Origin: a virus
Reading direction: 5' to 3' (one strand)
Length of the DNA stretch: 27,392 bases
Virus record (IMG/VR): IMGVR_UViG_3300000563_000018
Location: 1-27,392 of that record
Below, piece by piece: positions 1 through 27,392 of this stretch. The first letter of the stretch is position 1. Every line of letters starts with the position of its first letter. The translations under genes and the position numbers were made by a program. The notes under the pieces were generated by a model. That model was not told the origin of the DNA. It saw only the letters and a list, made by a program, of their open reading frames with translations, and made no database searches.

Positions 1-183
1 CAATCTATAGGAAGATGCATGCGGAAAAACAAAAATAAAGAATTTGCATATTATTTTGATTTTTGTGATCGTGGAATTAAATATTTTGAATCTGCATCTA
101 AACAAAGACAACAGATTTTAAAAGAATTTGGGCACGAAATTATAATAAAAAAAGAAAATGAGGTAGAACAAAATGATTTATAA
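1..183 (+). CDS. SF2 helicase, C-terminal end (5' partial)
   Basis: The reading frame is open from the first base to a TAA stop at 181-183, giving the last 60 residues of a protein that starts outside the window. It opens with QSIGRCMR, which matches motif VI (QxxGRxxR) of superfamily 2 helicases; the arginines of this motif contact ATP during hydrolysis. The tail that follows (FDFCDRGIKYFESASKQR) has the form seen after motif VI in phage T4 UvsW-type helicases, which remodel branched DNA and recombination intermediates. UvsW-like is therefore a reasonable guess but rests on one motif. The gene overlaps the next one by 11 bases, so they are in one operon. Family is fairly sure; subfamily is not. 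Confidence 0.75.
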   Translation, partial: QSIGRCMRKNKNKEFAYYFDFCDRGIKYFESASKQRQQILKEFGHEIIIKKENEVEQNDL

Positions 184-802
184 AGATATAATAGAAGAAC
201 AAAGTATAGAAGGAATAGAAAGAGAATTTAATGAAATAAATGAAAGATTAATAAAAAAAATAAATGATTTATTAATAAACAATAAAAATATGATATTAAT
301 CATAGAAGGTTGTGATGGAGTTGGAAAGGGATATCTAATAGAAAAATTATCAAAAAAACTACACAATTCATTAATTATGAAAAATTTAGATAGACCAATA
401 GATGGTTCTATTACAGAAAGAACAAAGATAAAAGAAAGATATATTTCAATGTTAAGTTGTTTAAATTTATTTGATAATATATATTTTATTTTTGATAGAT
501 ATCATGCATCAGAAATGATATATGGATTTAAGAGAGGATATGAAGCTAAAGATGATATTTTTTTTAAAAAATTAGAAGAAAAAATAAAAAAATATCCTCA
601 TTTATTAATTTTAATAGATCGAAATGAAGATGAAATAAAAGATGTTTTTAGAAATAGAGGAGATGATTTTATAAATGAAAGTGAAATAGAAGATATAAGA
701 AAAAGATATTATGATTTTTATAATCATTCTATTTTAAATAAAATTATAATTAATAGTTCAGAATTGGACAAATTAATAAAAAAAATAAAAGAGGTTGAAT
801 AG
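173..802 (+). CDS. Deoxynucleoside monophosphate (thymidylate-like) kinase
   Basis: This 209-residue protein has a P-loop GCDGVGKG at residues 46-53, close to the GxDGxGKS/T of thymidylate kinases, and a FDRYHASE segment at 107-114 that matches the DR[YFH] motif of that family. It should transfer phosphate from ATP to a dNMP in the cytoplasm, the step between dNMP production and polymerase substrate. About 40 extra residues precede the P-loop. The P-loop ends KGY where KST or KTT is usual, so it departs from cellular Tmk. The start has GAGG nine bases upstream and lies inside the end of the helicase gene. Because the next genes are a dUTPase/dCTPase and a thymidylate-synthase-like enzyme, its substrate could be dTMP or a modified dCMP; the sequence does not decide. 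Confidence 0.78.
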   Translation: MIYKDIIEEQSIEGIEREFNEINERLIKKINDLLINNKNMILIIEGCDGVGKGYLIEKLSKKLHNSLIMKNLDRPIDGSITERTKIKERYISMLSCLNLFDNIYFIFDRYHASEMIYGFKRGYEAKDDIFFKKLEEKIKKYPHLLILIDRNEDEIKDVFRNRGDDFINESEIEDIRKRYYDFYNHSILNKIIINSSELDKLIKKIKEVE

Positions 803-804
803 AT

Positions 805-1461
805 ATGGTAAATATAAATGAAATGAAAGATGTTGGAGAAGTTCCCAAGAATATTTTAGAAGCTATGTTCAATAAACAATATGAATTAGCTATGAAATAT
901 GTAGATATAGAAAAAATGGGAGATTTATTTGAAAAGACAAAAACAAATCTAGATACTCTTGAAGGTCAAATATGGCTTAAAGATTTTATATATAGAACAA
1001 TAGAAGAAGTTGGTGAATCTTTTGAAATAATATATATAAACAAAGATTGGTCTAAAGTATCAGATATTGATAAATTACATTATTCAGAAGAATTAATAGA
1101 TGCATTACATTTTTATATGGAATTATGTTTAATTGCAGGTTATAATTCAAGTGATTTTAAACAACTTAATGAATATGGACAAATAACAGGAATAGAAACA
1201 TCTCTTGAATATATATATTTTAAAATTAGACATTGGAATATTGTTCAATATTTAACTTTAGCAGGAAACAAATTAAGAAATAAAAAATGGAAACAAACAC
1301 AAGTATTAACAGATAGAAATATATTTTTTGAATATCTAGAAAAAGCACTTGATGAATTAATTAGAGCTTTAAGAAGTGTTGGATTAACAGATGAAGATAT
1401 TTATAACATGTATTTTAAAAAGAATCAGGTAAATAAATTTAGACAAAGAAGTAAATATTAG
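805..1461 (+). CDS. All-alpha dimeric dUTPase / dCTPase family protein
   Basis: A 218-residue helical protein of the dUTPase_2 (MazG-related) family. The metal-binding acids show as EEVGE (residues 67-71) and EELID (95-99), and the C-terminus carries YFKKNQVNKFRQRSKY (203-218), matching the YxxKNxxNxxRQxxGY nucleotide-binding signature, with Gly replaced by Lys near the end. Members hydrolyse dUTP and dUDP, or in T4 gp56 dCTP and dUTP, to the monophosphate and pyrophosphate. This keeps uracil, or plain cytosine, out of viral DNA and feeds dUMP or dCMP to the next enzyme. About 80 residues between the EELID helix and the C-terminal motif form an extended insert. The GAGG upstream lies within the end of the kinase gene, so the two are coupled. 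The choice between dUTP and dCTP is open. Confidence 0.85.
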   Translation: MVNINEMKDVGEVPKNILEAMFNKQYELAMKYVDIEKMGDLFEKTKTNLDTLEGQIWLKDFIYRTIEEVGESFEIIYINKDWSKVSDIDKLHYSEELIDALHFYMELCLIAGYNSSDFKQLNEYGQITGIETSLEYIYFKIRHWNIVQYLTLAGNKLRNKKWKQTQVLTDRNIFFEYLEKALDELIRALRSVGLTDEDIYNMYFKKNQVNKFRQRSKY

Positions 1462-1472
1462 GAGGAATTTAA

Positions 1473-2177
1473 ATGAGAATATATAAAAATTGTAAGGAAG
1501 CTATTAGTGAAATAGAAAGAGATTTATTTGAAATGGGAATTGAAGCCCATAGTAAATCTATGCAGAATAAAATTGTAGAAGATGACGAAGGATATAAAAC
1601 AAAAGAACTACAAGGATATTCTTTTACAATATTAAATTCTGAAGATAAAGATGAAATGGTTGGAGAATGTTTAAATTGGTGTAATTCTGAATTTAAAGAA
1701 AGAATTGCTGGATGGAATAATCCTAAAGAACATATATCTCTTAATCCAGGAGAAGCATATAAACTTAGAGAGAATGTTTGGAATGAATTTTTAGTAAATG
1801 GAAAATTTGAATATACATATAATGAAAGAATGTATTGGCAAATAAACGTTTTAATCGAAGAATTAAAAAGAAATCCAGAATCTAGACAAACAATAATTCA
1901 ATTTCATGATAGAAATATTGACCAAGATAGAATGGGAGGAAAAGCACGTGTACCATGTTCTATGTTTTATCAGTTGATGATAAGAGAAGGTAAACTTGAT
2001 ATTGTTTATATTATGAGAAGTACAGATTTTTATACACATTTTAAAAATGATATATGGCATGCAATTACATTTAGAGATTGGATTTCAAAGCAAATAAATG
2101 TTCCAGTAGGAAAATATATTATGTTTGCTTCTAGTTTACATGCATATAAAAAGGATTTTCCAGAGGGTGTGTATTAA
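1473..2177 (+). CDS. Thymidylate synthase-fold pyrimidine methylase or hydroxymethylase (dCMP hydroxymethylase candidate)
   Basis: The 234-residue protein has the ThyA core: the nucleophile Cys162 in RVPCSMFYQ, the phosphate-binding Arg in NPESRQTI (135-142), RSTD (182-185) and SSLHAY (220-225). These enzymes methylate or hydroxymethylate C5 of dUMP or dCMP using methylene-tetrahydrofolate. The residue equivalent to E. coli TS Asn177, counted 11 residues after the Arg of RSxD, is Asp193, in FKNDIWHA. In T4 dCMP hydroxymethylase the same position is Asp in a similar FRND segment, and Asp there favours cytosine over uracil. I therefore lean towards dCMP hydroxymethylase, but only specificity residues support it. 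A strong AGGAGG site precedes the ATG. It lies between a dUTPase/dCTPase gene and a small unknown gene. Confidence 0.82.
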   Translation: MRIYKNCKEAISEIERDLFEMGIEAHSKSMQNKIVEDDEGYKTKELQGYSFTILNSEDKDEMVGECLNWCNSEFKERIAGWNNPKEHISLNPGEAYKLRENVWNEFLVNGKFEYTYNERMYWQINVLIEELKRNPESRQTIIQFHDRNIDQDRMGGKARVPCSMFYQLMIREGKLDIVYIMRSTDFYTHFKNDIWHAITFRDWISKQINVPVGKYIMFASSLHAYKKDFPEGVY

Positions 2178-2402
2178 ATGCAATTTACACAAAAAAAAGA
2201 TATAAAAAAATTAAATGTTTGGTCTCCAATTTTAGAAGCAAAAATTGCAATATTTTGTTATGAAAATTATGAAGGAGAAAAAGAAATTATAAAAGAAATA
2301 AACGAAATGAATTATAAAATATTAAGAAAAAACAAAACAAAAACAAACAAAAGCTTATATACAGCAACACCATTACAAAGATTGTTAATAAATAAAAAAT
2401 GA
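2178..2402 (+). CDS. Hypothetical protein, 74 residues
   Basis: The ATG follows the stop of the thymidylate-synthase-like gene directly, with GAGGG upstream inside that gene, so translation is probably coupled. The product is Lys-rich, with one hydrophobic strand or helix (ILEAKIAIFCYENY, about residues 18-31) and a charged tail. No family is recognised and no signal peptide or clear membrane segment is seen. Its place between a nucleotide-modifying enzyme and a methyltransferase suggests a role in the same module, but this is only context. Confidence 0.6.
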   Translation: MQFTQKKDIKKLNVWSPILEAKIAIFCYENYEGEKEIIKEINEMNYKILRKNKTKTNKSLYTATPLQRLLINKK

Positions 2403-2408
2403 TTTTGA

Positions 2409-3272
2409 ATGAATGAAATAAATGAAAAAATAAATGTTGAATATTCTAATAAATTTCCAGATGATTATCATACAGATGTTTTAGAAGAATATTATAAAGG
2501 AGAATTGAAAAGAAAAGATGGGACATATTATAAACAAATAGAAAGAAAAAAATATTATACTACAAAAGAGAAACATTTATGTCCTGGTCATTGGCAAGGA
2601 TATAGGTTTGTTATTCAGAATTATTCTCCAAAAAATGGAAATGTTTTCGATCCATGCTTAGGTTCAGGAACTACAATTGTTGAATCTATAAATAATAATA
2701 GAAATGGATATGGAATAGAATTGGAATATTCTCACATTGCAAAAAAGAATGTAGAAGATCAGAATTCAAAAATGAAATATAAAATATATGATGGAGATAT
2801 GAGAAATATAAATGAAATTATTTTAGAAGATATATCATTTGATTTAATAGTTACTGGAACTCCATATATGGGAGTTTCTGATTCTCCACAAAGACCCAAT
2901 ACAAACTTAAAAAATAAATTTAATCACGAAAGAAGTTTTTATTATAATAAAGAATTACCTAATTTTGCATGGTTATCAGAAAAAGAATATTATAAAGAAA
3001 TAAAAAAAACATATGAAAAAATATTAAAATATTTAAAAAAGAATGGATATTTTTCAATTATAATAAAAGATACAATGAAAAATAAAAAACCATATTTATT
3101 ACATTATAATTTAACAAATGAAATTTTAAAAATTCCTGGAATTAAATTAGATAGTATTTATTTACATAAACATTTACCAAAAACACTATTTATGAATACT
3201 TATCCTAAACGATATCCAGGTATAAAAATTCCATTATATCAAACAATTGTAATATTTAAAAAGGTGAAATAA
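2409..3272 (+). CDS. DNA methyltransferase-like protein (N4/N6 amino type)
   Basis: This 287-residue protein binds S-adenosylmethionine. Motif I is DPCLGSGTT at residues 81-89, preceded by a helix as in the usual LDPFxGSGTT of amino-methyltransferases, and GIELEYSHI (102-110) is the following motif II strand. Motif IV appears as TGTPYMG at 149-155, where the usual form is [DNS]PP[YFW]; here the first two positions are Gly-Thr. The motif I before motif IV order and the single compact domain without a large recognition domain are notable. It could modify viral DNA, for example against host restriction. A tRNA guanine methyltransferase is an alternative but less likely from context. No good ribosome site precedes the ATG; the previous gene ends 6 bases upstream. 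Confidence 0.72.
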   Translation: MNEINEKINVEYSNKFPDDYHTDVLEEYYKGELKRKDGTYYKQIERKKYYTTKEKHLCPGHWQGYRFVIQNYSPKNGNVFDPCLGSGTTIVESINNNRNGYGIELEYSHIAKKNVEDQNSKMKYKIYDGDMRNINEIILEDISFDLIVTGTPYMGVSDSPQRPNTNLKNKFNHERSFYYNKELPNFAWLSEKEYYKEIKKTYEKILKYLKKNGYFSIIIKDTMKNKKPYLLHYNLTNEILKIPGIKLDSIYLHKHLPKTLFMNTYPKRYPGIKIPLYQTIVIFKKVK

Positions 3273-3276
3273 TAAT

Positions 3277-4782
3277 ATGTGTGGAATCTGGGGAATAACA
3301 ACAGGATATGAATATAAAAAAGCTATATTTGCAGAAAAACAACTCAAAAATAGAGGTCCTGATTATTCAGGTTTTTATTTTGATGATAATATATCCCTAG
3401 TTCATACAAGATTATCAATTATAGATTTATCAGAAAAATCAAATCAACCATTTAAAAGTTCAAAAACAATTATATCTTTTAACGGAGAAATTTATAACTA
3501 TAAAAAAATAAAAAAAGAACTAATAAATAAACACAAATATAAATTCAAAACAACAGGAGATACAGAAGTTATAGTTGCTTTATATGAAACACTTGGAATT
3601 GATGGGTTTAAAAAATTAAATGGAATGTTTGCATTTATTATTTATGATAAATTAAAAAATAAAACATATTTTCTAAGAGATCCAACAGGAATAAAACCAC
3701 TATATTACTATAAACATAAACATGGTATTATAGAAGCATCTAGTTTGATGAGTGCAATGTCTATTAAAAAAGAGACCAATTTAGATGCATTAAATGAGTT
3801 GTTATCTCTAGGGTATTCAAGAGTTTCTTTATATAAAAATTATGAAGAATTTGAACCAGGAATAATATATGATGAAAATTTAAAAAAAACGAAAATAAAA
3901 TTTATAACTACAAAAAAAACATTCAAAAAAAGTATAATAGAACATTTTTTAACATCTGATGTTCCTGTTGGAATTACATTAAGTGGAGGAATTGATTCCT
4001 CTTATATTACTTATATTTGTTCTAAGATAAAAAGGATTCATACATTTACAATAGGATTTGATAAAAACGAACCCGATATAATAGCCTCTAGAAATTTAGC
4101 AAAAAAACTTAAAACTATACATCATGAAATAATATTAAATAAACAAAAAGCTTTAAAAGAATATAAAAAAGCTATTGATATATTAGAAATCCCAATGGAT
4201 ATGGGAAGTACTTTACAGACTTATTTATTAGGTCGAGAGATTAAAAAATTTGGTATTAAGGTTATTTTAATTGGAGAAGGTTCTGATGAAATAAATGGTG
4301 GATATAGGAGACACCAAGAAGTATTATTTAAAGAATTTAATAAAAATCCATTAAAATTTTACAAAAATAGAATAATTAAATTCAACAAAAAAAATAGAAA
4401 TGAAATATTAAATCATAATTTTAAAAAAGATATTAATATTAATTTAAATAAAAAGTTGGGTTTAAATGCAATATTAGATTGGGATTTAAATAATGAAATT
4501 AGATTTTATCATCTAAAACGTATAGACCATATAATAAGTAATTTTGGAATAGAGGCTAGAGTTCCATATCTTGATTATAGTTGTATTAAAAGTTGTATGG
4601 AAATGGATTATTTAAAAAAAGTTAAGTTAAATAGAAACAAAATAATTTTAAGAAATGAAGCTAAAAAAGAAGGATTATTTAATGAATATGTTGAAATGCC
4701 AAAAAGACCTTTAAAAATATTTAAAGATATGAGGGATATAATTGAAAAAAATGTGAGGAGTTTTTTATATGAAAAAAAATAA
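3277..4782 (+). CDS. Glutamine-hydrolysing asparagine synthetase-like amidotransferase
   Basis: The 501-residue protein starts MCGIWGI, so Cys2 becomes the N-terminal glutaminase nucleophile after Met removal; this also fixes the start, which has AAGGTG upstream. RGPDYSG, NGEIYNY and TGDTE complete the class II glutaminase domain (about 1-190). The synthetase domain has the pyrophosphatase loop SGGIDSS (236-242), GEGSDE (333-338) and EARVPYLD. The family moves ammonia from glutamine onto an adenylated carboxylate, normally aspartate. All key residues seem present, so it should be active, though it is about 50 residues shorter than E. coli AsnB. It sits between a DNA methyltransferase and a dCMP deaminase and overlaps the latter by 14 bases. 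A role in building an amide-bearing modified base or surface group is possible but unproven. Confidence 0.9.
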   Translation: MCGIWGITTGYEYKKAIFAEKQLKNRGPDYSGFYFDDNISLVHTRLSIIDLSEKSNQPFKSSKTIISFNGEIYNYKKIKKELINKHKYKFKTTGDTEVIVALYETLGIDGFKKLNGMFAFIIYDKLKNKTYFLRDPTGIKPLYYYKHKHGIIEASSLMSAMSIKKETNLDALNELLSLGYSRVSLYKNYEEFEPGIIYDENLKKTKIKFITTKKTFKKSIIEHFLTSDVPVGITLSGGIDSSYITYICSKIKRIHTFTIGFDKNEPDIIASRNLAKKLKTIHHEIILNKQKALKEYKKAIDILEIPMDMGSTLQTYLLGREIKKFGIKVILIGEGSDEINGGYRRHQEVLFKEFNKNPLKFYKNRIIKFNKKNRNEILNHNFKKDININLNKKLGLNAILDWDLNNEIRFYHLKRIDHIISNFGIEARVPYLDYSCIKSCMEMDYLKKVKLNRNKIILRNEAKKEGLFNEYVEMPKRPLKIFKDMRDIIEKNVRSFLYEKK

Positions 4783-5200
4783 AATTGAATATTTTAAATC
4801 TATTGCTTTAAGAACAGCAGATTTAAGTACTTGTGTTAGTAAACACGTTGGAACCATTTTGGTTAAGGATTTACGAATTGTTGGAATGGGATACAATGGA
4901 ACATTACCAGGAAAAAAACACTGTAATAAAATCTTTAAAAAACAATTTGATAGAGAAAAACACCACGAATGGAGTTTATATAATGAATTACATGCTGAAC
5001 AAAATATGTTGAGTTTTTGTGCAAAAAATGGAATACCAACAAAGGATACAAGTTTATTTGTAACAATATCACCATGTATTAATTGTGCGAAGATTATAAT
5101 TGCTTCCGGAATAAAAAATGTTTATTATATTGAAAAATATGATAAAGAATGTGGATTGGATCTATTGAAAAAAAGTAAAATAAAATGTTATAAAATTTGA
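4769..5200 (+). CDS. dCMP deaminase
   Basis: A 143-residue zinc enzyme with the cytidine/deoxycytidylate deaminase signature: HAE at residues 75-77 (His75 zinc ligand, Glu77 proton shuttle) and SPCINC at 101-106 (Cys103 and Cys106 zinc ligands). It converts dCMP to dUMP, the substrate of thymidylate synthase, and so balances dCTP and dTTP. The length matches phage and ComEB-type dCMP deaminases. The start has GAGGAG nine bases upstream and lies 14 bases inside the end of the asparagine synthetase-like gene. It joins the kinase, dUTPase/dCTPase and TS-like genes in the nucleotide module. If the TS-like enzyme really uses dCMP, the two enzymes would compete for the same substrate. Confidence 0.92.
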   Translation: MKKNKIEYFKSIALRTADLSTCVSKHVGTILVKDLRIVGMGYNGTLPGKKHCNKIFKKQFDREKHHEWSLYNELHAEQNMLSFCAKNGIPTKDTSLFVTISPCINCAKIIIASGIKNVYYIEKYDKECGLDLLKKSKIKCYKI

Positions 5201-5205
5201 TTGTA

Positions 5206-7074
5206 ATGAAAGAATTAGAAAATCAAAAAATTTTAATATATGATATAGAAACAGCTTCTGTAGAAGAAAAAGCAAACCCCTATAAAGATAAACTAAGATT
5301 TTTTGGATGCTATTCATATTATACAAATGAATATTATTATCTAACAAAGATAGATGATATAAAGAAAATAATTAATATTCATGATTATCTTGTTGGATTT
5401 AATACTTTAAAATATGATAATATAGTTTTATTTAATAATGGATTTTCTGATATAATTTTCAAGAATGAAAACACAGAGCATTATAAAATGAAATATAAAA
5501 CCAATATTGATTTATATAAAATATTTAAAGATCGATCTACTATTATTAAAACTAAAAAGGGTCTAATGAAAGATTTATTATTATCTTATTCATTAGATTA
5601 TATTACTAAAATGTTAGATTTAGTAGATGATGAGTCAGGAAAGATAAAAGATTTTGATTATAATATATTAAAAAAAGAAACATTTACAAAAGATGAAATG
5701 ATATATATTTTTAAATATTTAAAAAGAGATATAGACATCACAAAAAAACTATATGAATGGTTGGAATCTTATTTTTATGTATTTAAAGATTTTTTATATA
5801 AAAAAGATATAAAAAATAAAAGTTATTTAAATAGTACAACAGCAGTTTTTTCATATAAAGCAATATGTAAAGCATTAGATATTAAAGAGGAATATTCTAA
5901 TATAAAAACACATAGTACATATGGTGGAGGATATGTTAGTTATCCTGCAGCTGAACATTTTGAAGGTGATATATATTGTCTGGACTACAACTCGCTGTAC
6001 CCAAATATAATTGTTCAGTGTAATATATTTTCGAGAAATAAAGAAAATAATGAAGGATGGAATGGTAATAATTTTTTTAAAGTTGAAGGATATTATAATG
6101 ATAAAACACAGGGAAAGATTGAAAAATTAATTAAAAAATGGTATGAAGATAGGATTATTTTCAAAAAAAATAAAGACCCAAAAGAACATACAATAAAAAT
6201 TATATTAAATACTATGTATGGAATTTTGGGGAATGAATCATTTAAAACATTAGCCGATAATGTTTGTGTTGCTGATGTAACAAGATTAGCACGTCAATGG
6301 ATAAAATTAGCAAGAAAAATATTTAAAGATAAAGGATATAAAATTATATATTCAGATACAGATTCTATATATATATTAGATGAATATAATAATAAAGATA
6401 AAATTATAGAAATAAAAGATGAAGTTATAAATATAATAAAATCAAATGTTCCATTTCCATATACTGGTTTTGATATGGGTATAGATGATGAAATATCACA
6501 TATGTGGTTTTTTAAATCTAATAATAAAATAACAATAAAAAAATCAGATGATGAAATGGATGAAGACGATTATATTAATAAACCAAAAGGATTATTAAAA
6601 AAAAATTATATATATTTAACAAAAGATAATAAAATTGTTGTTAAAGATGCTGGTATTAAAAAGAAATCTACAAGTTTAATAGTTAGAAAGATTTTTTGGG
6701 ATTATATGGTTCCAAGAATAAAAGAAGAAAAGAAAATAAAATTTGAAAAAAAATGGTTTGAAGAAATTATAAGTAATTTGTTAAATGAAGATTTATCTTT
6801 AATTTCAAAAAGATATTCAGTAAATAATAAAGTATTTTATAAAAACAATTCACAATTACAATATCAAATTTCAAACAAATATGGAGAGGGAATTCATTTT
6901 TTAATTCCTAATAAAATAATGGGTGTAGGAAAAGGTAAAAAATACTGCACAATAGAAGAGTTTAAAAAAAATAATTTAACAATTAATGATATAGATTTTA
7001 AAAATATTTGGAGAGAACTCGAATTTTTTATTGAAGAAAAAAATAAACAATATAAGTTGTTTGATTTTGTTTAG
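5206..7074 (+). CDS. Family B DNA polymerase
   Basis: The 622-residue protein has both polymerase and proofreading domains. The exonuclease motifs are DIET (13-16), FNTLKYD and YLKRDID (Exo I-III, all with their acidic residues). The polymerase motifs are DYNSLYPNI (A, from residue 260), KIILNTMYG (B, about 331) and YSDTDS (C, 382-387). KKNYIYL is a KxY-type motif further on. It should be the viral replicase. It is shorter than T4 or archaeal PolB (near 800-900 residues). I saw no clear protein-priming insertions but cannot exclude them. The ATG at 5206 lacks a clear ribosome site; a TTG at 5197 would overlap the dCMP deaminase stop by 4 bases and is an alternative start. Codons at 5980-6000 differ sharply from the rest. 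Confidence 0.93.
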   Translation: MKELENQKILIYDIETASVEEKANPYKDKLRFFGCYSYYTNEYYYLTKIDDIKKIINIHDYLVGFNTLKYDNIVLFNNGFSDIIFKNENTEHYKMKYKTNIDLYKIFKDRSTIIKTKKGLMKDLLLSYSLDYITKMLDLVDDESGKIKDFDYNILKKETFTKDEMIYIFKYLKRDIDITKKLYEWLESYFYVFKDFLYKKDIKNKSYLNSTTAVFSYKAICKALDIKEEYSNIKTHSTYGGGYVSYPAAEHFEGDIYCLDYNSLYPNIIVQCNIFSRNKENNEGWNGNNFFKVEGYYNDKTQGKIEKLIKKWYEDRIIFKKNKDPKEHTIKIILNTMYGILGNESFKTLADNVCVADVTRLARQWIKLARKIFKDKGYKIIYSDTDSIYILDEYNNKDKIIEIKDEVINIIKSNVPFPYTGFDMGIDDEISHMWFFKSNNKITIKKSDDEMDEDDYINKPKGLLKKNYIYLTKDNKIVVKDAGIKKKSTSLIVRKIFWDYMVPRIKEEKKIKFEKKWFEEIISNLLNEDLSLISKRYSVNNKVFYKNNSQLQYQISNKYGEGIHFLIPNKIMGVGKGKKYCTIEEFKKNNLTINDIDFKNIWRELEFFIEEKNKQYKLFDFV

Positions 7075-10727: not shown

Positions 10728-12869
10728 CTAACTCACATTAATTGTTCCAGCTTTTATTATTTCCTTTGATGTTACTGCATAATCATCAAATGGTGGAGAG
10801 GTATCTCCATTCCAATCTGTAATTGACACATCTAACACGCCATCAACATTATGTGCAACTTGATAAAACTTGGAGACCTTTACATCTTCATTAATCTCAA
10901 AAGTATTCAACCATTTAATAATTGCATAATATACATTTGTTTTAACGATATCTGTTGAATATCCACTTTCGATATCAACTTCAACCTCACAATCAATATT
11001 GAAATATACAAGTGCTGGTTCTTCCCAAGTAACAGACACACCTAATGCCCTTGTTTCTTCAATCACGTCTTCAATTTCGTTTTTAATATCTGTTGATAAT
11101 GGCAAAAATTCACCTGCGATTAAAACTTCAGTATGTCCTAAATGATTGATTTGATAATTAACATAAAAAATGTCACCTGTAGATGTGGGGGGAGTACCAC
11201 CACTAATCCATTCAACTTGGTTGTCAATATTCAAAAAATAATCAGTGTCATATGTATAATCTGCACTCCCATCATATGTGTCAGTTATTAATATATTTGT
11301 TGGGGTAGTATCATCATCTAAAAATGCAACTTCGTTACTTAATTTGTATATATCAACATTATCATTATAGATATGCGGTTCATTTTCAATATCTTTAACT
11401 GGCAAATCAAATATTGCAACACTGGAAATACCTTCAATATTCATTAATGCGTTTTCTAATGCTGATGCAGTTGCCTTCCCTGGTCCTGCACTCATATTTT
11501 TTATTCTTTCTCTTAATGTATCATCATCTTCTTCATCTAATCCGCCTGTCATTGTTGTATAGTTAATCACAGACTGAGTTTCTGGAAGACTTGTAACTTT
11601 ATATATTATCTGTGCTCTCGACACATTATGATTGCTACCCACTTCGGTTGCTTCACAATCAATATCAATTGTTGCAGGATTCCACCATGTGTTTATTGTT
11701 GTGTCATGATCTGGATAATCAGTGGGGTCATTAAATGAAATTATATTCGCGTCACTATATCTTTTGCCTTCAGCTGCATATATAAAGTCTAATAGCACAT
11801 CACCACTTGTAACTGTTTCAGTTGTAGAATATAATTCGCCTGTGATTTGTACCCATCTAATTTCTTTTATATTAGGAGCACCCACTTTCTTTGACGCACC
11901 AATTCCGGATCCTGTTAGTTTTGGATTTATTACCATTTGAAACCATCTATCAAAAGGAACTGTCCCAGACCAATAGTTTGTTTCAAAATAATTATTGTTA
12001 AAATCCCCTGCTGTGGACCCTATTTTTATTTTCCAATTTTCAAACTTGTTTTGAGTTGCTGAATCAACCAAAAATATATTTAAAAATAATAATTTATTTT
12101 CAATATCAAAAGGAGTCGCAAATTCTTTATGATATCTCATAAAATCTTGAGTTGTGCCATCCTTCCCTAATTGTATTGAATTATCACTTTTAATTCTAAC
12201 AGTTGATTCTAATGCTGGAATAGTTGAATCAGTTGCAGCAACCCAATCAGTTGTTGCTTCACAATCATCTATTTCTTCAAGACCATTTAAATCAGTTACA
12301 ATATATAAATTCGCAGCATAATCAATCGTCCAACCAGGCCATCCTGGATAAGTCCATGTATTGCCAGAGCCACCTTGTGTCCCATGTAAATGACCCATTT
12401 GTCTAACAAATCTTTCATTTAATGGATATTTATTAACTCCATTATAAAAAACAAAGTTGTGATTTATTTCATTTGCAAAAGTTCTATCGCTTGTTGTTTT
12501 ATATTCATATATTTCTGTTAATTCTTGTGGCGTGCTCACAACACTATTTTCTGGTATCACAAAATCTGTGGTTATATAATCGTATTTTCTAAACGTAACC
12601 TTGCCTGTTGCAACTTCTCCCGGATGTCTTTCAGCACCAACTATCACTCCTAAATTATTTAAATCCTCGCCTGTTGCTGTATCTATTTTCGTTCCTTTAT
12701 ATATATTTTCTAATTGTAAATATTGCTCATATATTTGTTGGCCAATCGCTTCAATCAATGTTCTTATCACACTTCCGGGGTTCAAATCATTGATCGCTGT
12801 TACATTTGTAACAATATCAACCATTATATCATTTATAATATCTTGTCTTTCTTTTTTTGTATATACCAT
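10728..12869 (-). CDS. Baseplate J-like protein with inserted beta-sandwich domain
   Basis: This 713-residue protein is a baseplate J family wedge protein, one of the subunits surrounding the tail hub. The N-terminus has LNPGSVIRTLIEAIGQQIYE (30-49) and TGEDLNNLG (67-75), hallmark motifs; GGLDEEDDDTLRERIKNM and the GPGKATASALENALMNIEGI segment mark the middle, and a strand-rich C-terminal part follows. About 200-367 is extra compared with P2 gpJ (about 300 residues): an all-beta stretch starting EEIDDCEATTDW with Trp-rich strands, like a carbohydrate-binding module. A GTG at 12872 is possible; the ATG at 12869 is chosen. It lies between gp25-like and GpI-like genes, the usual baseplate order. 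Confidence 0.9.
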   Translation of the reverse strand: MVYTKKERQDIINDIMVDIVTNVTAINDLNPGSVIRTLIEAIGQQIYEQYLQLENIYKGTKIDTATGEDLNNLGVIVGAERHPGEVATGKVTFRKYDYITTDFVIPENSVVSTPQELTEIYEYKTTSDRTFANEINHNFVFYNGVNKYPLNERFVRQMGHLHGTQGGSGNTWTYPGWPGWTIDYAANLYIVTDLNGLEEIDDCEATTDWVAATDSTIPALESTVRIKSDNSIQLGKDGTTQDFMRYHKEFATPFDIENKLLFLNIFLVDSATQNKFENWKIKIGSTAGDFNNNYFETNYWSGTVPFDRWFQMVINPKLTGSGIGASKKVGAPNIKEIRWVQITGELYSTTETVTSGDVLLDFIYAAEGKRYSDANIISFNDPTDYPDHDTTINTWWNPATIDIDCEATEVGSNHNVSRAQIIYKVTSLPETQSVINYTTMTGGLDEEDDDTLRERIKNMSAGPGKATASALENALMNIEGISSVAIFDLPVKDIENEPHIYNDNVDIYKLSNEVAFLDDDTTPTNILITDTYDGSADYTYDTDYFLNIDNQVEWISGGTPPTSTGDIFYVNYQINHLGHTEVLIAGEFLPLSTDIKNEIEDVIEETRALGVSVTWEEPALVYFNIDCEVEVDIESGYSTDIVKTNVYYAIIKWLNTFEINEDVKVSKFYQVAHNVDGVLDVSITDWNGDTSPPFDDYAVTSKEIIKAGTINVS

Positions 12870-12900
12870 CACATCACATTTTATATATTTTTATTTATAT

Positions 12901-13323
12901 CTATACAAATATTTCATATATCATATTCATTGATTCTGGCGCTTCAATTGGTAACACATCCAATGAAACATTGACCTTCGCTTTATTCACTTCATCAAAT
13001 ATTATTATTATATTTTCTACTTTTCTAATCCGTGGTTCTTGCAATAATGTGAATTCAATTTCGTTTGCAATTTCAATTTTTAAAACATCGCTTCGTGGAA
13101 TACCCATCATCAATTTCAATTTGCTACCATAATTTAAATTAACTCTCATTTCAGTTAATACTGTTTGCAATCTATTTTTTATTGCTTGTGCCAGGTTTTC
13201 TTTATATTTAATAATACTAAAATCATTATTTTGTGCAATCACGATATCATTATTCATCATTTTAATATCTTTACCCAAATTTAATATTGGTTTTTCTAAT
13301 GCTTGATCTAATGTTATTGCCAT
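12901..13323 (-). CDS. gp25/gpW-like baseplate wedge protein
   Basis: A 140-residue protein with the gpW/gp25 (lysozyme-like fold, non-enzymatic) pattern: NNDFSIIKYKENLAQAIKNRL (about 32-52) for the first helix, then LQTVLTEMRVNLNYGSKL, and a C-terminal half with EPRIRKVENIIIIF. The RxxLxTxxGxxxxxxxYG-type core is present as VLTEMRVNLNYG. In T4, P2 and contractile injection systems it forms the inner wedge next to the tube. It lies just before baseplate J. It starts about 70 bases after the spike gene; one copy of the 23-base repeat lies in that gap and may drive transcription. Start ATG is preceded by a weak purine-rich stretch. Confidence 0.82.
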   Translation of the reverse strand: MAITLDQALEKPILNLGKDIKMMNNDIVIAQNNDFSIIKYKENLAQAIKNRLQTVLTEMRVNLNYGSKLKLMMGIPRSDVLKIEIANEIEFTLLQEPRIRKVENIIIIFDEVNKAKVNVSLDVLPIEAPESMNMIYEIFV

Positions 13324-18719: not shown

Positions 18720-20150
18720 TTAAGCAATTGTGATTACCACATCAATAAAGTTTGTACTATATGCTGGTCTAATATTAATTGCAACATTCACAGTATCTAC
18801 GCTTGGACCTTCTGTCACGATTGTTGGCATATATTCGTTAAGTAAACCTCTATTCTGTGCAATTTCCAAAATACCATCAGTAACCCCCTTCATTCTTTCT
18901 CTTGTAATATCTGAATTTGGTTCTCCCAAATAATCTTGCAATGTGTTTTGTATTGTTGTTTTAATATTATCTACAATTCTCATAATATTAATTTCAAAGA
19001 AAATACTTGTAACGTCTGCAATTCGTGTGACACCTCTTGCATATCTTAATGCATTGCTAATTCGTGATGCAACACACACTCTTGAATTTAATAATTGTTC
19101 AATTTCAACATTATCATAATATTTTTTATCTGTTGTTGAATTGATTATCAAATCATTAACAATTACTTCTTTTCGTGTTGGAGAACCACCATCATCATCC
19201 AGGTCACATATTTTGCCTGCTAATGCACACCCTAAATATGTTCCATCAAGTATTATTTTCGAATCATCAATTCGTGAAGTGTAATATATACTTGGCGCAC
19301 ACAATACAAATCTTTCTCCAACTGTGTTTCTTGCTTGTATTGTTGGAATATTTTCGTCTTGTGAAACACCGGTTACATACATTCCATATTTTTTTAATGT
19401 GTCTGCTCTATAATTAATTTTCGCCAACATTGTTGTATGAAATGCGTCTGTATCTTCAAGAGATAATGTTTGATGTGTATTAGGAATCATTAAAATGTCC
19501 CATTCTTCATTTGCAACAATATTATCAAATGCTGTTGTATAATCTTCTGTAACAATATTATCTGCTCCATCATGTCCATCTTCTAATTGTTCATAACTTG
19601 CAATTGAATCAACCAACTCTGCAGAATTAACATCCATACTAACCAATCTACTTCTAGCATTTATTACATCTGCCATTTCTTGGTTTGAAGTGAAACCATT
19701 TACATCTCCTGCATTATCAAACAATTCTACAATATTACCGATTTTAATCCTGATGATTCGTCCTGTTCCTTGTTCATCAATATCTACCATAATATTATTT
19801 CCATATGTTCCTTTTTGCAATGCTTGAATTTTAATCACATTTGCAGCCCCACCACTGTTTCCAGCAAATTGTTTGGATGCAAACTCAACATCATCATTTG
19901 CGATTCTTAATATTTTTAAAATACTACCGCCATTTGCAAAAAACAATTCTGCTGCTTTAATTATTGTTGTGTTATCATCTTTATCTTCTTTATATTCTTG
20001 CAAAACAGTTGTGAAGTTGCTTGTTGTTATTATTTCATTGATACGGCCATATTGTGCTGTACCAATCATAAACCCAACTGCCTCTCCAACACCAGGTATT
20101 AAACTCACTGCTGTTCTAACATCAATATCAATTCTTGGATTTAATGCCAT
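18720..20150 (-). CDS. Tail sheath protein
   Basis: A 476-residue protein of the contractile tail sheath family. The start RIDIDVRTAVSLIPGVGEAVGF and the C-terminal third, with ARGVTRIADVTSIFFEINIMR (about 371-391), then TIQNTLQDYLGEPNSDITRE and the closing strand TVNVAINIRPAYSTNFIDVVI, match the conserved sheath core. YMPTIVTEGPSVDTVN lies just before that strand. The sheath surrounds the tube and contracts to drive it through the cell envelope. The start has AAGGTG upstream. Its 5' neighbour is a 73-residue acidic/basic protein and its 3' neighbour the tube. The central region (about 90-200) is variable among sheaths. Confidence is high from both sequence and order. Confidence 0.92.
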   Translation of the reverse strand: MALNPRIDIDVRTAVSLIPGVGEAVGFMIGTAQYGRINEIITTSNFTTVLQEYKEDKDDNTTIIKAAELFFANGGSILKILRIANDDVEFASKQFAGNSGGAANVIKIQALQKGTYGNNIMVDIDEQGTGRIIRIKIGNIVELFDNAGDVNGFTSNQEMADVINARSRLVSMDVNSAELVDSIASYEQLEDGHDGADNIVTEDYTTAFDNIVANEEWDILMIPNTHQTLSLEDTDAFHTTMLAKINYRADTLKKYGMYVTGVSQDENIPTIQARNTVGERFVLCAPSIYYTSRIDDSKIILDGTYLGCALAGKICDLDDDGGSPTRKEVIVNDLIINSTTDKKYYDNVEIEQLLNSRVCVASRISNALRYARGVTRIADVTSIFFEINIMRIVDNIKTTIQNTLQDYLGEPNSDITRERMKGVTDGILEIAQNRGLLNEYMPTIVTEGPSVDTVNVAINIRPAYSTNFIDVVITIA

Positions 20151-23996: not shown

Positions 23997-24515
23997 TTAA
24001 TCATCTCCATTTTTTTTAATTTGATTCTCTAAATTACCAAGAATGTTAATAAATGCATTCTTATCTGGGTCTCCATTACTGCAACCAGTTTGTTTATTTG
24101 ATTTCATTTTTTCAAATTCTTCTCTGGTTTTCGTTGCGTGCTGAAAGTCAATCAAATATATTTTATTATCTTTTATCAAAATCTCTTCCTTTTTTATATC
24201 ATTATGACTACAACCAATAGTCTTTAAATTTTCAACAATCATCTCTATCTGTTCTCTCCAATCTGCTGGTAAGTTCTTTTTGTTTACATTCTCTCCAACA
24301 TAAGTCATTATTAAATAATCGTCTCCTCTCTCTACTAATTGTGGAGTGTATGTCTCATGGTGCAAATGCTTCAACCAAAATGTTTCGTTCTCAAACAATT
24401 TAATGTGCTTTTTATCACACATAATCTTTTTTACATATACTGGGATATCATCTTTACTTTTTAATTCATTGAAATGCTCATCTAAAAAAATCCTTCTTGA
24501 AGTATTAGACATCAT
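23997..24515 (-). CDS. Small protein kinase-like phosphotransferase (RIO/WaaP-like)
   Basis: The ATG at 24515 overlaps the methyltransferase stop (ATGA) and has GGAG upstream; a longer form from 24539 is less likely. The 172-residue protein is a minimal kinase fold. HNDIKKEEILI (104-114) is the catalytic loop (HxD, Asp106) and LIDFQHA (121-127) stands for the DFG metal loop (Asp123). VYVKKI (26-31) may give the ATP lysine and NETFWLKHL the helix with the partner Glu. This short form is like Bud32, RIO or LPS-kinase families, which phosphorylate proteins or sugars. Flanked by glycosyltransferases, it may phosphorylate a glycan. No Gly-rich loop is clear. Confidence 0.72.
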   Translation of the reverse strand: MMSNTSRRIFLDEHFNELKSKDDIPVYVKKIMCDKKHIKLFENETFWLKHLHHETYTPQLVERGDDYLIMTYVGENVNKKNLPADWREQIEMIVENLKTIGCSHNDIKKEEILIKDNKIYLIDFQHATKTREEFEKMKSNKQTGCSNGDPDKNAFINILGNLENQIKKNGDD

Positions 24516-25129
24516 ACGTCTCCTTTTTTTACACACCATACCAACTTTCTATCGTGCTGTAATTTATCATCTAACGATCGTTCTTCAATAATTTCAACAT
24601 CACAACAAGAAATTAAATAATCTAGTTGCTCTTTTTGATTATGACCATTCGTTTCATATAATATGATATTTGATATATTTAAACAATAATCTATAAGTTC
24701 TTTCCATCTTTTTATCCATTTACCTATAGATAGAATCATGCAAATGTCTATAGTCTGTGGTATGAAATGATTGATATCTTCAAAACTTTCTTTATCAATA
24801 TCGAATGTATAAAAATTTAGATTATGTATGTCGCTAACTTTAGTTAATCTATTTGCAACATTAATATATTTGATATGATTATCAAAGCCAATACCATTGC
24901 GAATAAATGGAGATAGTGTTAATAACATTCCACCAATATTGCAACCAAAATCTAATACATTTTTATCAACGAATCTTTCTATTATTTTTTCTACTCTTTT
25001 TTCACAATTTCTTTGACCATTCAAAATACAACCATTAATATTTAAAGAATAATATCCTTCTTCATACGTGTTATAACTTGCATTCTTTTTCAAATATTGT
25101 ATTAGTTTTTTGAGTTGTGTTTTGTTCAT
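24512..25129 (-). CDS. Class I SAM-dependent methyltransferase
   Basis: The 205-residue protein has motif I VLDFGCNIGG (58-67), followed by an acidic strand end (NGIGFDNHIKYINVA, about 78-92) that binds the SAM ribose, and IDICMILSIGKWIKRWKEL (about 122-140) as the motif IV and V region. No DNA-binding or amino-methyltransferase NPPY motif is present, so a sugar, lipid or protein target is likely. Start and stop overlap neighbours by 4 bases each (ATGA), with GGAG before the ATG. It belongs to the cassette of two glycosyltransferases and a kinase, which suggests methylation of a glycan such as an O-methyl sugar. Confidence 0.85.
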   Translation of the reverse strand: MNKTQLKKLIQYLKKNASYNTYEEGYYSLNINGCILNGQRNCEKRVEKIIERFVDKNVLDFGCNIGGMLLTLSPFIRNGIGFDNHIKYINVANRLTKVSDIHNLNFYTFDIDKESFEDINHFIPQTIDICMILSIGKWIKRWKELIDYCLNISNIILYETNGHNQKEQLDYLISCCDVEIIEERSLDDKLQHDRKLVWCVKKGDV

Positions 25130-26028
25130 TTTTTTTCTCCAGTTTCTGTTCTAACAAACAAGACCCCTTCGTTCGTTGCAGTGTTAGCCCATTCTCTCCA
25201 TCTCTTTGCGTTTCCTGGTCCTGAAATGCTCTCCATGAATAATAAAGCTTCTTTGAAATTTGTGTTCAAAGCAATCGCTTGTAAACAATGCTCACGAGCC
25301 TTAACATAATTATTTATGTTTCTATAACAATATGCTAACATCATATGCGCATCGGCCATCTCTGCACCAAAATACGCAGTTTTTAAATATTCTTCATACC
25401 AAAATATTGCAGTTTTATATTTCTTCCTATACCAATATTCTCTAGCAAGATAGAATTTTTCTCTGACACATTCTGGATTTTCAATAACTACCTTCCCAAG
25501 TATCCTGAAAGCTCTATCTGGATCTTTTTTATGAGCATTTGAATAACCATAATATAATTTAATGTCTGAATTATATCCTGTTCCAACACTCAAATAATTG
25601 TGAATTTTACCATGCCATTTAATTCCTTTATTATTTTTAAATAATCTGATTGAATTATGAACATGCCTGTGATCGTTAATCCCGGTGGTTTTAAAAAAGA
25701 CAGTGTCTTCTTTTAAGTTCTTTATCAACTCTCTTATTTTTTGTATACCATCTTTTTCCAACTCCTCATCAGCATCAATTATCAATATCCAATCTCCTGA
25801 GCATTTTTCAAGAGACTGATTCCTGCTAAATGCAAAGTCATCTCGCCAATCATACTCCTTTCCAAAATATACTTTATCCGTATATTTTTTAACGAGTTCG
25901 ATCGTGTTATCTTCAGACCCAGTGTCTACCACAATAATTTCGTCAGCGTCTTTCACAGACTCTAAACACTTCTCTATACAAGAACTTTCGTTCTTAACAA
26001 TCATTGATATACTAATTCTTTCAGTCAT
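25126..26028 (-). CDS. Family 2 glycosyltransferase with TPR repeats (SunS-like)
   Basis: The first 200 residues of this 300-residue protein form a GT-A domain: ISMIVKNESSCIEKCLESV (7-26), VVDTGSEDNT (33-42), a FAFSRNQSLE stretch and IIDADEE (83-89), where Asp85 and Asp87 are the metal-binding DxD. About 180-290 is a set of helix pairs (REKFYLAREYWYRKKYKTAI, MADAHMMLAYCYRNINNYVKAREHCLQAI, in pieces) of the tetratricopeptide type. This GT2-TPR form is known from SunS-type glycosyltransferases, which glycosylate peptides on Cys, and from cell-wall enzymes. Start ATG at 26028 overlaps the propeller gene end by 8 bases. Donor and target not known; the propeller or tail proteins are possible acceptors. 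Confidence 0.88.
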   Translation of the reverse strand: MTERISISMIVKNESSCIEKCLESVKDADEIIVVDTGSEDNTIELVKKYTDKVYFGKEYDWRDDFAFSRNQSLEKCSGDWILIIDADEELEKDGIQKIRELIKNLKEDTVFFKTTGINDHRHVHNSIRLFKNNKGIKWHGKIHNYLSVGTGYNSDIKLYYGYSNAHKKDPDRAFRILGKVVIENPECVREKFYLAREYWYRKKYKTAIFWYEEYLKTAYFGAEMADAHMMLAYCYRNINNYVKAREHCLQAIALNTNFKEALLFMESISGPGNAKRWREWANTATNEGVLFVRTETGEKK

Positions 26029-27392
26029 TGTTCACACCATTTATTTTTTTACAATCGCAAAATCTCATGCGTCTAAATATTATTCTTTTTGTTCTTTCAT
26101 CCAATGCAATATTATTCGTTTGTATCTTTGAAAATTTGCTAAAATACTTGGCAAAACTTGCCTTGTTTGCTGAGCCACATATCACAAAATCATTATTGAA
26201 ACTCGCCGCAGAAAAAATTGCACCGTCTTCAAAATTAACTTCACCTTCAATCTTCTCCCAAGTAGCACCCTGGTCCAAAGAATATGTTATTAAAGAAAGC
26301 GCTGGATCCGTTTCTGCTCCAACTGCAATCACCATTTGGTATTTTGCAAACGCAACATCATATAAAATACCTGTAGTATCCATCGACATTTCAGTCCATA
26401 ATATTTCTCCATCGGTTGATCTGCTTGCTTTGCCACCCGCACCAACTACAAACCATTTATTTGTCCACCCACCTGTTTTAACACATCTTACTTTTAATGC
26501 GTCTGTTGTTCCAAATTGTATATTTGTTGCCGTCCAATTTAAACCGTTTGATGAATATGCAGCCTTCCCAGCATTACCTACAGCGACCCATTTTTCTCCA
26601 CTCCCAACTTCCCCATTATAATCAATAGAGTTTATAGATGCCCCATCAAATATTGTTTCTAATTCTTCCAAATCATACCAATTAATACCATCGTTCCCAG
26701 AGTATTTTGCAATACCATCTGCTCCAACAAGCACCCAATGCCCAGATTTGTATGCAGAGTCCATAATACTTTCATCGGTGAATCCTGTTGATACAAGTGT
26801 TGACCATGTTATTCCATTATCATGAGAAATCCCAACCTCTGCATCTTCTCCAGTTACAACAATAGTACCGCCATCTAGTTCTTCAAAATAATTAATGCTA
26901 AAACCTTCTCCTGTTGTTACTTGTCCAAGATTCTCCCAATCAATCATGTTATAGGATCGAGAAACTTCTCCAGAACTATCACAAGCCATCCATGTTGTTG
27001 GATCAGAATAACTTGCTTTTCCATTCCATCCAACTGCAACCCATCTTCCATTTCCATATGCAACAGACTCTGCAGTTGATGTACCAAATTTAATGCCTGT
27101 ATATGTTCCTGGCTCTAGGTAATTCCAATTTTCACCATCATCTGACCATGACGCTTTTCCACTGATTCCACCTACAACCCATCTTCTATTTCCGTATGCA
27201 ACAGACCGTGCAGTAGTTGTATCAAATTTGATGCCTGTTTCTTCTCCAGCTGGTAATATTGTCCAAGTTTCACCATTATCATCACTATAACTTGCTTTTC
27301 CAACCCCAGCACTTCCACCCACAACAACCCATCTACCATCACCATATGCGATAGAATATGCATATCTTGTATCAAATTTAATTCCTGTTGTT
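26021..27392 (-). CDS. Tandem-repeat beta-propeller protein, likely tail fibre or receptor-binding (5' partial)
   Basis: The frame is open past the right edge; the GTG at 27322 is an internal codon, so the true start lies outside the window. The visible 456 residues consist of about ten imperfect repeats of 40-50 residues with consensus G.xFxTxxAxSVAYGxGRWVxVGxxGKASYS.D...W. This fits sialidase or YCF48-type propellers (BNR-like D...W ends). The repeats near the right edge are closest in sequence. The last 45 residues (FAKYFSKF, then basic, with RRMRFCDCKK) are not repeated and end the protein. Such propellers in phages bind receptors or decorate the virion. It leads a glycan-modification cassette, so it may be modified by it. 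Confidence 0.75.
   Translation of the reverse strand, partial: TTGIKFDTRYAYSIAYGDGRWVVVGGSAGVGKASYSDDNGETWTILPAGEETGIKFDTTTARSVAYGNRRWVVGGISGKASWSDDGENWNYLEPGTYTGIKFGTSTAESVAYGNGRWVAVGWNGKASYSDPTTWMACDSSGEVSRSYNMIDWENLGQVTTGEGFSINYFEELDGGTIVVTGEDAEVGISHDNGITWSTLVSTGFTDESIMDSAYKSGHWVLVGADGIAKYSGNDGINWYDLEELETIFDGASINSIDYNGEVGSGEKWVAVGNAGKAAYSSNGLNWTATNIQFGTTDALKVRCVKTGGWTNKWFVVGAGGKASRSTDGEILWTEMSMDTTGILYDVAFAKYQMVIAVGAETDPALSLITYSLDQGATWEKIEGEVNFEDGAIFSAASFNNDFVICGSANKASFAKYFSKFSKIQTNNIALDERTKRIIFRRMRFCDCKKINGVNND
27081..27392 (-). repeat. Imperfect tandem DNA repeats coding propeller blades
   Basis: Near-identical starts of successive repeat units occur in plus-strand view as GTACCAAATTTAATGCC at 27081, GTATCAAATTTGATGCC at 27219 and GTATCAAATTTAATTCC at 27369. 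Spacings are 138 and 150 bases, that is 46 and 50 codons, so reading frame is kept. Similarity continues for much of each unit (GGTTGT..ATGG and GGAAAAGCAAG in minus-strand view). It allows unit gain or loss by recombination. Confidence 0.65.

Follow-up and report, generated by a model that had tools for sequence, protein, structure and literature searches.

The 27,392-nucleotide stretch of viral DNA analysed here (hereafter the window), a fragment of a tailed phage, carries at positions 173-5200 an operon that we interpret as a module for cytosine hypermodification, with 5-hydroxymethyl-dC likely (probability of about 0.78) to be further decorated by a glutamine-fed enzyme resembling asparagine synthetase (AsnB), the end product being as yet unshown. 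The evidence is sequence-based only, with no biochemical or mass-spectrometric data. It rests on the linkage of a dCMP-hydroxymethylase-like gene (HMase) to the AsnB-like gene over dozens of divergent environmental phages, and probably reveals that AsnB-type enzymes serve a second route of cytosine hypermodification, separate from the carboxymethylcytosine system. Phage DNA hypermodifications affect restriction and CRISPR resistance and are a source of sequencing enzymes, and the recurring HMase-AsnB pairing suggests a widespread, uncharacterised chemical disguise of viral DNA. It also gives a new reading to viral "asparagine synthetase" genes, which automated pipelines file under amino-acid metabolism, and raises the testable question of whether the amidotransferase acts on hydroxymethylcytosine.

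Organization of the operon

The operon comprises seven co-directional, closely packed plus-strand ORFs, separated by 11 bases at most or overlapping slightly, with the dCMP deaminase starting inside the AsnB-like gene, and lies directly 5' of a family-B DNA polymerase gene (Table 1). The initial annotation had described a tight operon of seven genes, one of them encoding an unknown protein of 74 residues, a claim that held: all seven ORFs are present, and profile matches support the families of all but the 74-residue protein.

Table 1. Genes of the operon and the adjoining polymerase gene, with profile support
Feature	Position	Strand	Support
P-loop deoxynucleoside monophosphate kinase	173..802	+	PF02223 6.8e-8, phrog_761 1.2e-19
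dUTPase_2-family dUTPase/dCTPase (MazG-like)	805..1461	+	PF08761 6.5e-14
dCMP-hydroxymethylase-like, thymidylate synthase (TS) fold	1473..2177	+	TS fold 7.1e-13, phrog_160 3.3e-27
74-aa orphan protein	2178..2402	+	family matches all below cut-off
N6/N4-type methyltransferase-fold protein	2409..3272	+	N6_N4_Mtase PF01555 7.5e-13
Asparagine-synthetase-like glutamine amidotransferase	3277..4782	+	GATase_6 PF13522 1.8e-36, Asn_synthase PF00733 6.9e-50
dCMP deaminase	4769..5200	+	PF00383 1.8e-19, phrog_174 2.5e-46
Family-B DNA polymerase, immediately 3' of operon	5197..7074	+	PF00136 3.6e-14

In a related contig, L005, the same gene set was found again in almost unchanged order, with the polymerase directly 5' of it; its homologues of the kinase and the dUTPase/dCTPase are 37% and 62% identical to those of the window, respectively. 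Precursor-supply genes of the same kind were likewise found across the linked loci. Since the set recurs in L005 and in many divergent contigs, the grouping is not a product of chance. The kinase is probably an hmdCMP/dTMP kinase, its T4 gp1-like role being inferred. A search with the aligned dUTPases of the window and L005 recovered only the contig of L005 itself.

The hydroxymethylase-like enzyme and its target base

The window HMase has a catalytic Cys162 and a specificity residue, Asp193, both kept in 19/19 relatives, and its best PDB match is T4 dCMP hydroxymethylase (1b49, 2.3e-9). Asp193 aligns with the "FRND" of T4 gp42 and occupies the dCMP-selecting position, that of Asn177 in E. coli TS and Asp179 in T4. 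An Asp at this position marks the TS-family enzymes of experimentally cytosine-modified viral contigs (PMC8670742). Because the catalytic Cys is kept and the dCMP-selecting position holds Asp, we regard the enzyme as dCMP-hydroxymethylase-like, with cytosine as its target base; it likely prefers dCMP, the conversion itself being inferred from its sequence.

The AsnB-like amidotransferase

Both the class II glutaminase and the ATP-pyrophosphatase motifs are kept in the window AsnB (C2, R45, N69, E71, D95 and S236-G-G-I-D-S, window numbering), and its model superimposes on E. coli AsnB 1ct9 with Z 39.6 and an rmsd of 2.8 over 424 aligned residues. It scored 329.8 bits against TIGR01536 (asparagine synthase), above the NCBI cut-off of 267.1, and 300 against NF006949, below 499. 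Where E. coli AsnB has TTIRAST, a segment whose Arg is implicated in aspartate binding, the window protein has PMDMGSTL, and so it lacks the aspartate-binding TT(I/V)RAS segment of true asparagine synthetases.

The window AsnB bears two signatures, PMDMGS and KRPLK, whose general forms, P-x-[DE]-x-G-S and K-x-[PAG]-L-[KR], co-occur in 83/83 HMase-linked AsnBs and were never found together in E. coli AsnB, four bacterial-type AsnBs, or the AsnBs of Motura, TurkishDelight and L034. In a tree, the AsnBs of the window, L005 and L020 fall with the HMase-linked clade (support 94/93), and the window AsnB is thus a member of this group. The glutaminase residue Asn74 is altered in many linked AsnBs (Val in 40/83), and ammonia is therefore perhaps not the general nucleophile.

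Linkage of the two genes across phages

A search starting from the HMase recovered 18 contigs, of which 12 carry an AsnB homologue and 6 do not. The reverse search, starting from AsnB and blind to the HMase, covered the best 80 of 290 AsnB relatives and found an HMase at the same locus in 54; after removal of training contigs, the count was 46/72, or 23/27 clusters. Among other viral AsnBs, taken as a control set, an HMase neighbour was found in 0/78 (0/42 clusters). Directly upstream of AsnB, 41 of the 78 usable loci have a P-loop kinase and 23 have the HMase; the neighbours in the HMase-linked clade are nucleotide and replication genes. These data demonstrate that the pairing is common to dozens of unrelated environmental phages and is not local to the window. 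We found no earlier account of it in the literature searched, the coverage of which was incomplete, so that earlier notice is not excluded.

The initial annotation had proposed a possible base hypermodification module, to be examined by comparing the neighbourhoods of viral asparagine synthetase-like genes, and had held that finding the same amidotransferase in surface-sugar settings would count against it. The proposal is supported: scans from either gene recover its partner, the HMase stands beside linked AsnBs and is absent from the 78 others, and no surface-sugar setting emerged in the linked clade. It is also refined, in that the base is likely cytosine, while the methyltransferase proves an optional member and no relative of the 74-residue protein emerged.

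Used as a lone query sequence, the window AsnB retrieved no relatives. Scans of genome contigs with HMase alignments gave no relative either, and so no host was assigned. INPHARED matches to AsnB (Listeria phage LM 4-14-1, LT985590, MT839049) were excluded; L006 and L007 were inspected and read as bacterial DNA, while the Listeria records were set aside without inspection.

The methyltransferase and the 74-residue protein

The window methyltransferase has the SAM motif DPCLGSGTT and a catalytic motif altered to GTPY, and does not meet the [DNS]PP[YFW] catalytic motif of N6/N4 DNA methyltransferases; its model is nearest to Trm11/TrmN (Z 17.7, rmsd 3.0, 178 aligned). Homologues adjoin the HMase in L020, which shares GTPY, and in L021, L023, L025, L027 and L032, which have NPPY. 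In five contigs found by starting from the methyltransferase (L120-L124), AsnB and HMase were absent from the fetched 7-kb flanks, and HMase from the whole contigs. The methyltransferase is thus a frequent yet optional accessory and no strict partner. As for the 74-residue protein, none of the fetched loci held a homologue; other loci do have small ORFs adjoining the HMase, but these show no relationship to it.

Proposed pathway

In the pathway that we propose, the dUTPase_2 enzyme would lower dCTP and dUTP, yielding dCMP and dUMP (step 1), and the HMase would turn dCMP into 5-hydroxymethyl-dCMP using methylene-tetrahydrofolate (step 2). The kinase would then move the modified nucleotide towards the triphosphate, for incorporation, as we infer, of the modified dCTP by the phage polymerase (step 3), while the dCMP deaminase would convert residual dCMP to dUMP, for dTTP (step 4). 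Finally, the N-terminal Cys of the AsnB-like enzyme would hydrolyse glutamine and the ammonia would be channelled to the C5 side chain of cytosine, activated by ATP (adenylated), placing an amide or amine there at the nucleotide or DNA level (step 5). The sequences back the family assignments, a preference for cytosine in step 2 and the linkage of AsnB to the HMase; the chemistry of steps 3-5 and the final nucleoside are inferred, as is the group that the AsnB-like enzyme transfers, whether ammonia or another amine.

Several observations sit uneasily with this pathway. Hydroxymethylcytosine lacks the carboxylate on which AsnB enzymes usually act, and an obvious source of one was not found, neither CmoA nor a carbamoyltransferase being detected in the linked contigs tested. 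The window AsnB, moreover, exceeds the NCBI asparagine synthase cut-off. The six HMase contigs without AsnB and the altered Asn74 of many linked AsnBs also count against it.

A bolder reading, of lower probability, is possible in one of two forms: either AsnB adenylates the 5-hydroxymethyl group and ammonia displaces AMP to give 5-aminomethylcytosine, or the TS-fold enzyme or a methyltransferase-fold protein with an HPEC motif adds a group carrying an acid, which AsnB then amidates. Direct amination might use glutamine-derived ammonia, on nucleotide or DNA, and another amine in those sister clades whose glutaminase is altered. If true, this would be a base-modification chemistry undescribed in the literature searched and spread over many phage groups.

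Alternative explanations

A first alternative is a route of the CmoA-CmoX-CmoY type, the 5-carboxymethylcytosine/5-glycylcarboxymethylcytosine system of Synechococcus phage S-B43, in which the phage AsnB-like CmoY acts on C5-carboxymethylcytosine in DNA (PMC12783734); here, cytosine in DNA would be carboxymethylated and then amidated by the AsnB-like enzyme. In its favour, that system includes phage relatives of AsnB that carry a glutaminase domain (PMC12783734), and a gene of the C5-methyltransferase fold is present in several linked contigs. However, CmoA was found in 0/20 and 1/30 linked contigs (the one match, of 15.8 bits, being negligible) and not in the window record, itself a fragment, whereas the same search gave clear matches in 18/21 control contigs. 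Furthermore, the linked C5-methyltransferase-fold proteins have HPEC or HPDC and not SPPC, which controls have in 45/45, and the window record lacks a PF00145 C5-methyltransferase. CmoX-like methyltransferases adjoin 45/78 control AsnBs; the HMase-linked and Cmo systems are almost mutually exclusive, and the two signatures separate their AsnBs. The route is thus largely disfavoured and very unlikely.

We also consider it very improbable that the AsnB-like gene is an auxiliary metabolic gene supplying asparagine for phage proteins, incidental to a T4-like hydroxymethylcytosine operon. The TIGR01536 score, a fold almost that of E. coli AsnB and the intact glutaminase and PP-loop motifs favour this view; against it stand the replaced TTIRAST segment and the dCMP-HMase linkage over highly divergent phages, absent from the 78 other viral AsnBs and unexpected for a nutritional gene.

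There is similarly little to recommend thymidine hypermodification, in which the TS-like enzyme would make 5-hydroxymethyl-dUMP and the module would decorate hmdU. Known hydroxymethyl-dU pathways do attach amino groups to the base, and the operon has a dCMP deaminase, but the dCMP-specific Asp193 is universal among the relatives, the nearest solved structure is a dCMP HMase, and several linked loci have a ThyX-like gene for dTMP (judged by eye, unscanned).

Lastly, amidation of surface or virion glycans in a coincidental gene neighbourhood can all but be dismissed: bacterial AsnB paralogues amidate sugars and the window has a GT2 glycosyltransferase gene (25126-26028), but this lies 20 kb off on the opposite strand, recurrent glycan genes were not found around linked AsnBs, and the AsnB is translationally packed among nucleotide genes.

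Comparison with known systems

Similar to CmoAXY, the module places a phage AsnB-family ATP-dependent enzyme beside cytosine C5-modifying genes; it differs in that the HMase-linked contigs tested lack CmoA and an SPPC-type CmoX, the C5 carbon would come from a dCMP-HMase, and the AsnB falls into a different clade, marked by two signatures of its own. In Achromobacter phage Motura, an AsnB gene lies between queC and a TGT gene in a 7-deazaguanine cluster, and so there too an AsnB-like gene was drawn into a DNA-base modification cluster; that pathway, however, concerns a purine, and the Motura AsnB lacks both signatures.

The MetaGPA module, in which a dCMP-HMase and a carbamoyltransferase yield 5-carbamoyloxymethylcytosine (PMC8670742), shares the Asp-type TS/HMase, pyrophosphohydrolase, dCMP deaminase and a decorating enzyme, which in HMase-linked contigs is instead AsnB-like; carbamoyltransferase PF16861 was found in 0/20 contigs tested, bearing in mind that these may be fragments. 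With their partner genes missing, the carboxymethylcytosine, carbamoyl and 7-deazaguanine routes were all disfavoured for the HMase-linked clade. The T4 hydroxymethylcytosine pathway (gp42, gp56, gp1, cd) likewise has a dCTPase/dUTPase, dCMP HMase, dNMP kinase and dCMP deaminase, and where T4 has glucosyltransferases, the present module has an AsnB-like enzyme and methyltransferase-fold proteins.

The operon and its gene families

The fragment, an IMG/VR virus record of 27,392 bases, opens on the plus strand with seven ORFs that fill the operon, either spaced by no more than 11 bases or joined by short overlaps, and these are followed by a family-B DNA polymerase. The initial annotation had proposed a possible DNA base hypermodification module here, and its gene calls held for every operon gene in profile searches, which assigned a dNMP kinase, a dUTPase_2, a thymidylate-synthase-fold protein resembling dCMP hydroxymethylase (HMase), an orphan, an N6/N4-type methyltransferase fold, an asparagine-synthetase-like glutamine amidotransferase (AsnB) and a dCMP deaminase. 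No relative of the 74-residue orphan was detectable, including in the fetched loci.

Coordinates of the features discussed, in the window and in fetched contigs
Feature	Source	Positions	Strand
Operon	window	173-5200	plus
Family-B DNA polymerase	window	5197-7074	plus
Baseplate (minus-strand half)	window	10728-13323	minus
Contractile-tail sheath (minus-strand half)	window	18720-20150	minus
Late-strand group: BNR-repeat protein, GT2 glycosyltransferase with TPR, SAM methyltransferase, RIO-like kinase	window	23997-27391	minus
7-deazaguanine cluster stretch holding the AsnB-like gene	L011, Achromobacter phage Motura	7395-12146	
751-aa methyltransferase fusion	L032	4749-7004	
C5-methyltransferase-fold protein	L030	5787-6980	
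Uracil-DNA-glycosylase (UDG)-polymerase fusion	L021	8803-11280	
Separate UDG-family gene	L022	5329-5835	

Linkage of HMase and AsnB

A scan with the HMase alone retrieved L005, 72% identical, whose contig carries, in order, polymerase, kinase, dUTPase_2, HMase, AsnB and dCMP deaminase, and has neither the methyltransferase nor the 74-residue protein. The HMase profile scan yielded 18 contigs in total, and whole-contig searches found an AsnB homologue in 12 of them; as these AsnBs share no more than 23-34% identity with that of the window, the linkage has survived deep divergence. An atypical C5-methyltransferase-fold gene lies between dUTPase and HMase in nine AsnB-bearing contigs.

The reciprocal scan was queried with nine AsnBs from contigs pairing both genes (linked AsnBs), without the HMase, and the best 80 of 290 relatives were kept. 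An HMase was found in the same fetched locus for 54 of these 80, and a dCMP deaminase for 55. Eight of the 80 loci were contigs that had built the query; with such contigs left out, 46/72 loci had an HMase. Clustering of the kept set at 70% identity placed an HMase in 31 of 35 clusters. Of the four clusters lacking one, three come from a jumbo-phage group and the fourth is a contig of 5 kb; the group's single 319-kb contig (that of L092) has an HMase elsewhere, ~100 kb from AsnB. This group (L058-L111) carries a P-loop kinase-AsnB pair amid unrelated genes.

As a control we used a third scan with window-type AsnBs, from which the best 80 of 162 relatives were fetched, giving 78 other viral AsnBs without the double signature described below. 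No HMase was found nearby in any of these 78, or in any of their 42 clusters (Fisher p = 1e-14, linked versus control, independent clusters). This value is indicative only, the contigs being related, and neighbour counts depend on 7-kb flanks of contigs that are fragments. Genome-contig scans with HMase alignments gave no relative, and no host was identified for these phages.

Target base of the HMase

We infer, from sequence alone, that the HMase most likely acts on cytosine, because of its structural kinship with the T4 enzyme, its T4-like residues and a published residue pattern. T4 dCMP hydroxymethylase is its closest solved relative (2.3e-9), Asp193 occupies the position of T4's cytosine-selecting Asp, the catalytic Cys162 is also present, and both residues are invariant in 19/19 aligned HMase proteins. 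At this position most thymidylate-synthase proteins have Asp in contigs with experimentally modified cytosines and Asn in unmodified contigs (MetaGPA, PMC8670742). Human-gut phages (L012-L014) carry an HMase homologue, 36-37% identical, and close to it two more proteins, only weakly similar, that belong to a single family; AsnB was not found in the fetched stretch.

Comparison with the carboxymethylcytosine system

In the contigs compared, the HMase-AsnB pairing and the published phage carboxymethylcytosine route behave as nearly exclusive alternatives. A C5-methyltransferase neighbours 45 of the 78 control AsnBs, with SPPC in 45/45, and CmoA was present in 18 of 21 tested contigs of this kind. 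Among 50 HMase-linked and related contigs, by contrast, CmoA was missing apart from one 15.8-bit match.

The AsnB-like protein and the proposed mechanism

The modelled window AsnB has the asparagine synthetase fold (424 residues aligned to 1ct9, Z 39.6, rmsd 2.8). Its glutaminase residues Cys, Arg, Asn, Glu and Asp are all present, as is the SGGIDS loop, but, unlike asparagine synthetase, it lacks the aspartate-site TTIRAST segment. In its place the linked clade has P-x-[DE]-x-G-S, and K-x-[PAG]-L-[KR] follows the catalytic Lys. Both signatures together occur in 83/83 linked AsnBs versus 0/8 comparison AsnBs, one bacterial member of which matches K-x-[PAG]-L-[KR] alone. These motifs were not the search patterns, yet the set was picked by similarity, and so they mark the clade rather than prove it independently. 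The tree places the AsnBs of the window, L005 and L020 (another fetched contig) together with those of the linked clade, apart from AsnBs of bacteria and of other phages (94/93).

Asn74 is retained in window-type AsnBs and is Val in many distant members, so the amine donor might differ between them, a possibility resting on sequence alone. An extra basic residue lies close to the active site, and AsnB directly adjoins a P-loop kinase in 41/78 loci; together these hint, tentatively, at a nucleotide substrate. The 7-deazaguanine cluster of Achromobacter phage Motura also contains an AsnB-like gene, with queC on one side and a TGT gene on the other.

The enzyme families, the cytosine-type HMase and the conserved HMase-AsnB linkage are shown by sequence; the steps that follow are inferred, no chemistry having been observed. 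In the proposed mechanism, hmdCMP would be made, phosphorylated and incorporated into DNA, and the AsnB-like enzyme would convert the C5 side chain with glutamine nitrogen and ATP, before or after polymerisation. The hmC side chain is a hydroxyl, not a carboxyl, leaving the electrophile step unsolved, and no conserved candidate for adding a carboxylate was found among the neighbours of linked AsnBs. Chiefly because of this gap we leave the AsnB chemistry open, and the gap is also what gives the HMase-AsnB case its interest.

Methyltransferases and accessory genes

A model of the window's methyltransferase comes closest to the guanine-N2 tRNA methyltransferases Trm11/TrmN (Z 17.7, rmsd 3.0, 178 aligned). 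Family members from five linked contigs retain NPPY, but those of the window and L020 have GTPY. Five further contigs carry the family although their fetched flanks hold neither AsnB nor HMase. Where the motif is readable, the C5-methyltransferase-fold proteins of linked contigs have HPEC or HPDC, in contrast to SPPC in CmoX, the C5-methyltransferase of the carboxymethylcytosine system. One such family, in L030 with relatives in L022, L023, L025, L026, L028 and L029, is tied to HMase-AsnB clusters, with DNLP for ENV in several members and a Cys-rich C-terminus. In L032, an HPEC-type protein and a homologue of the N6/N4-type methyltransferase of the window are fused in a single ORF, and the two may therefore act together.

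Near AsnB in L086, L055 and L030 lie small proteins that match DUF1599 (nucleotide modification associated domain 1) only weakly and below the cut-off; such proteins recur adjoining linked AsnB or HMase genes. Finally, L021 encodes a uracil-DNA-glycosylase domain fused to a family-A DNA polymerase, and in its sister contig L022 a separate UDG-family gene directly follows the dUTPase.
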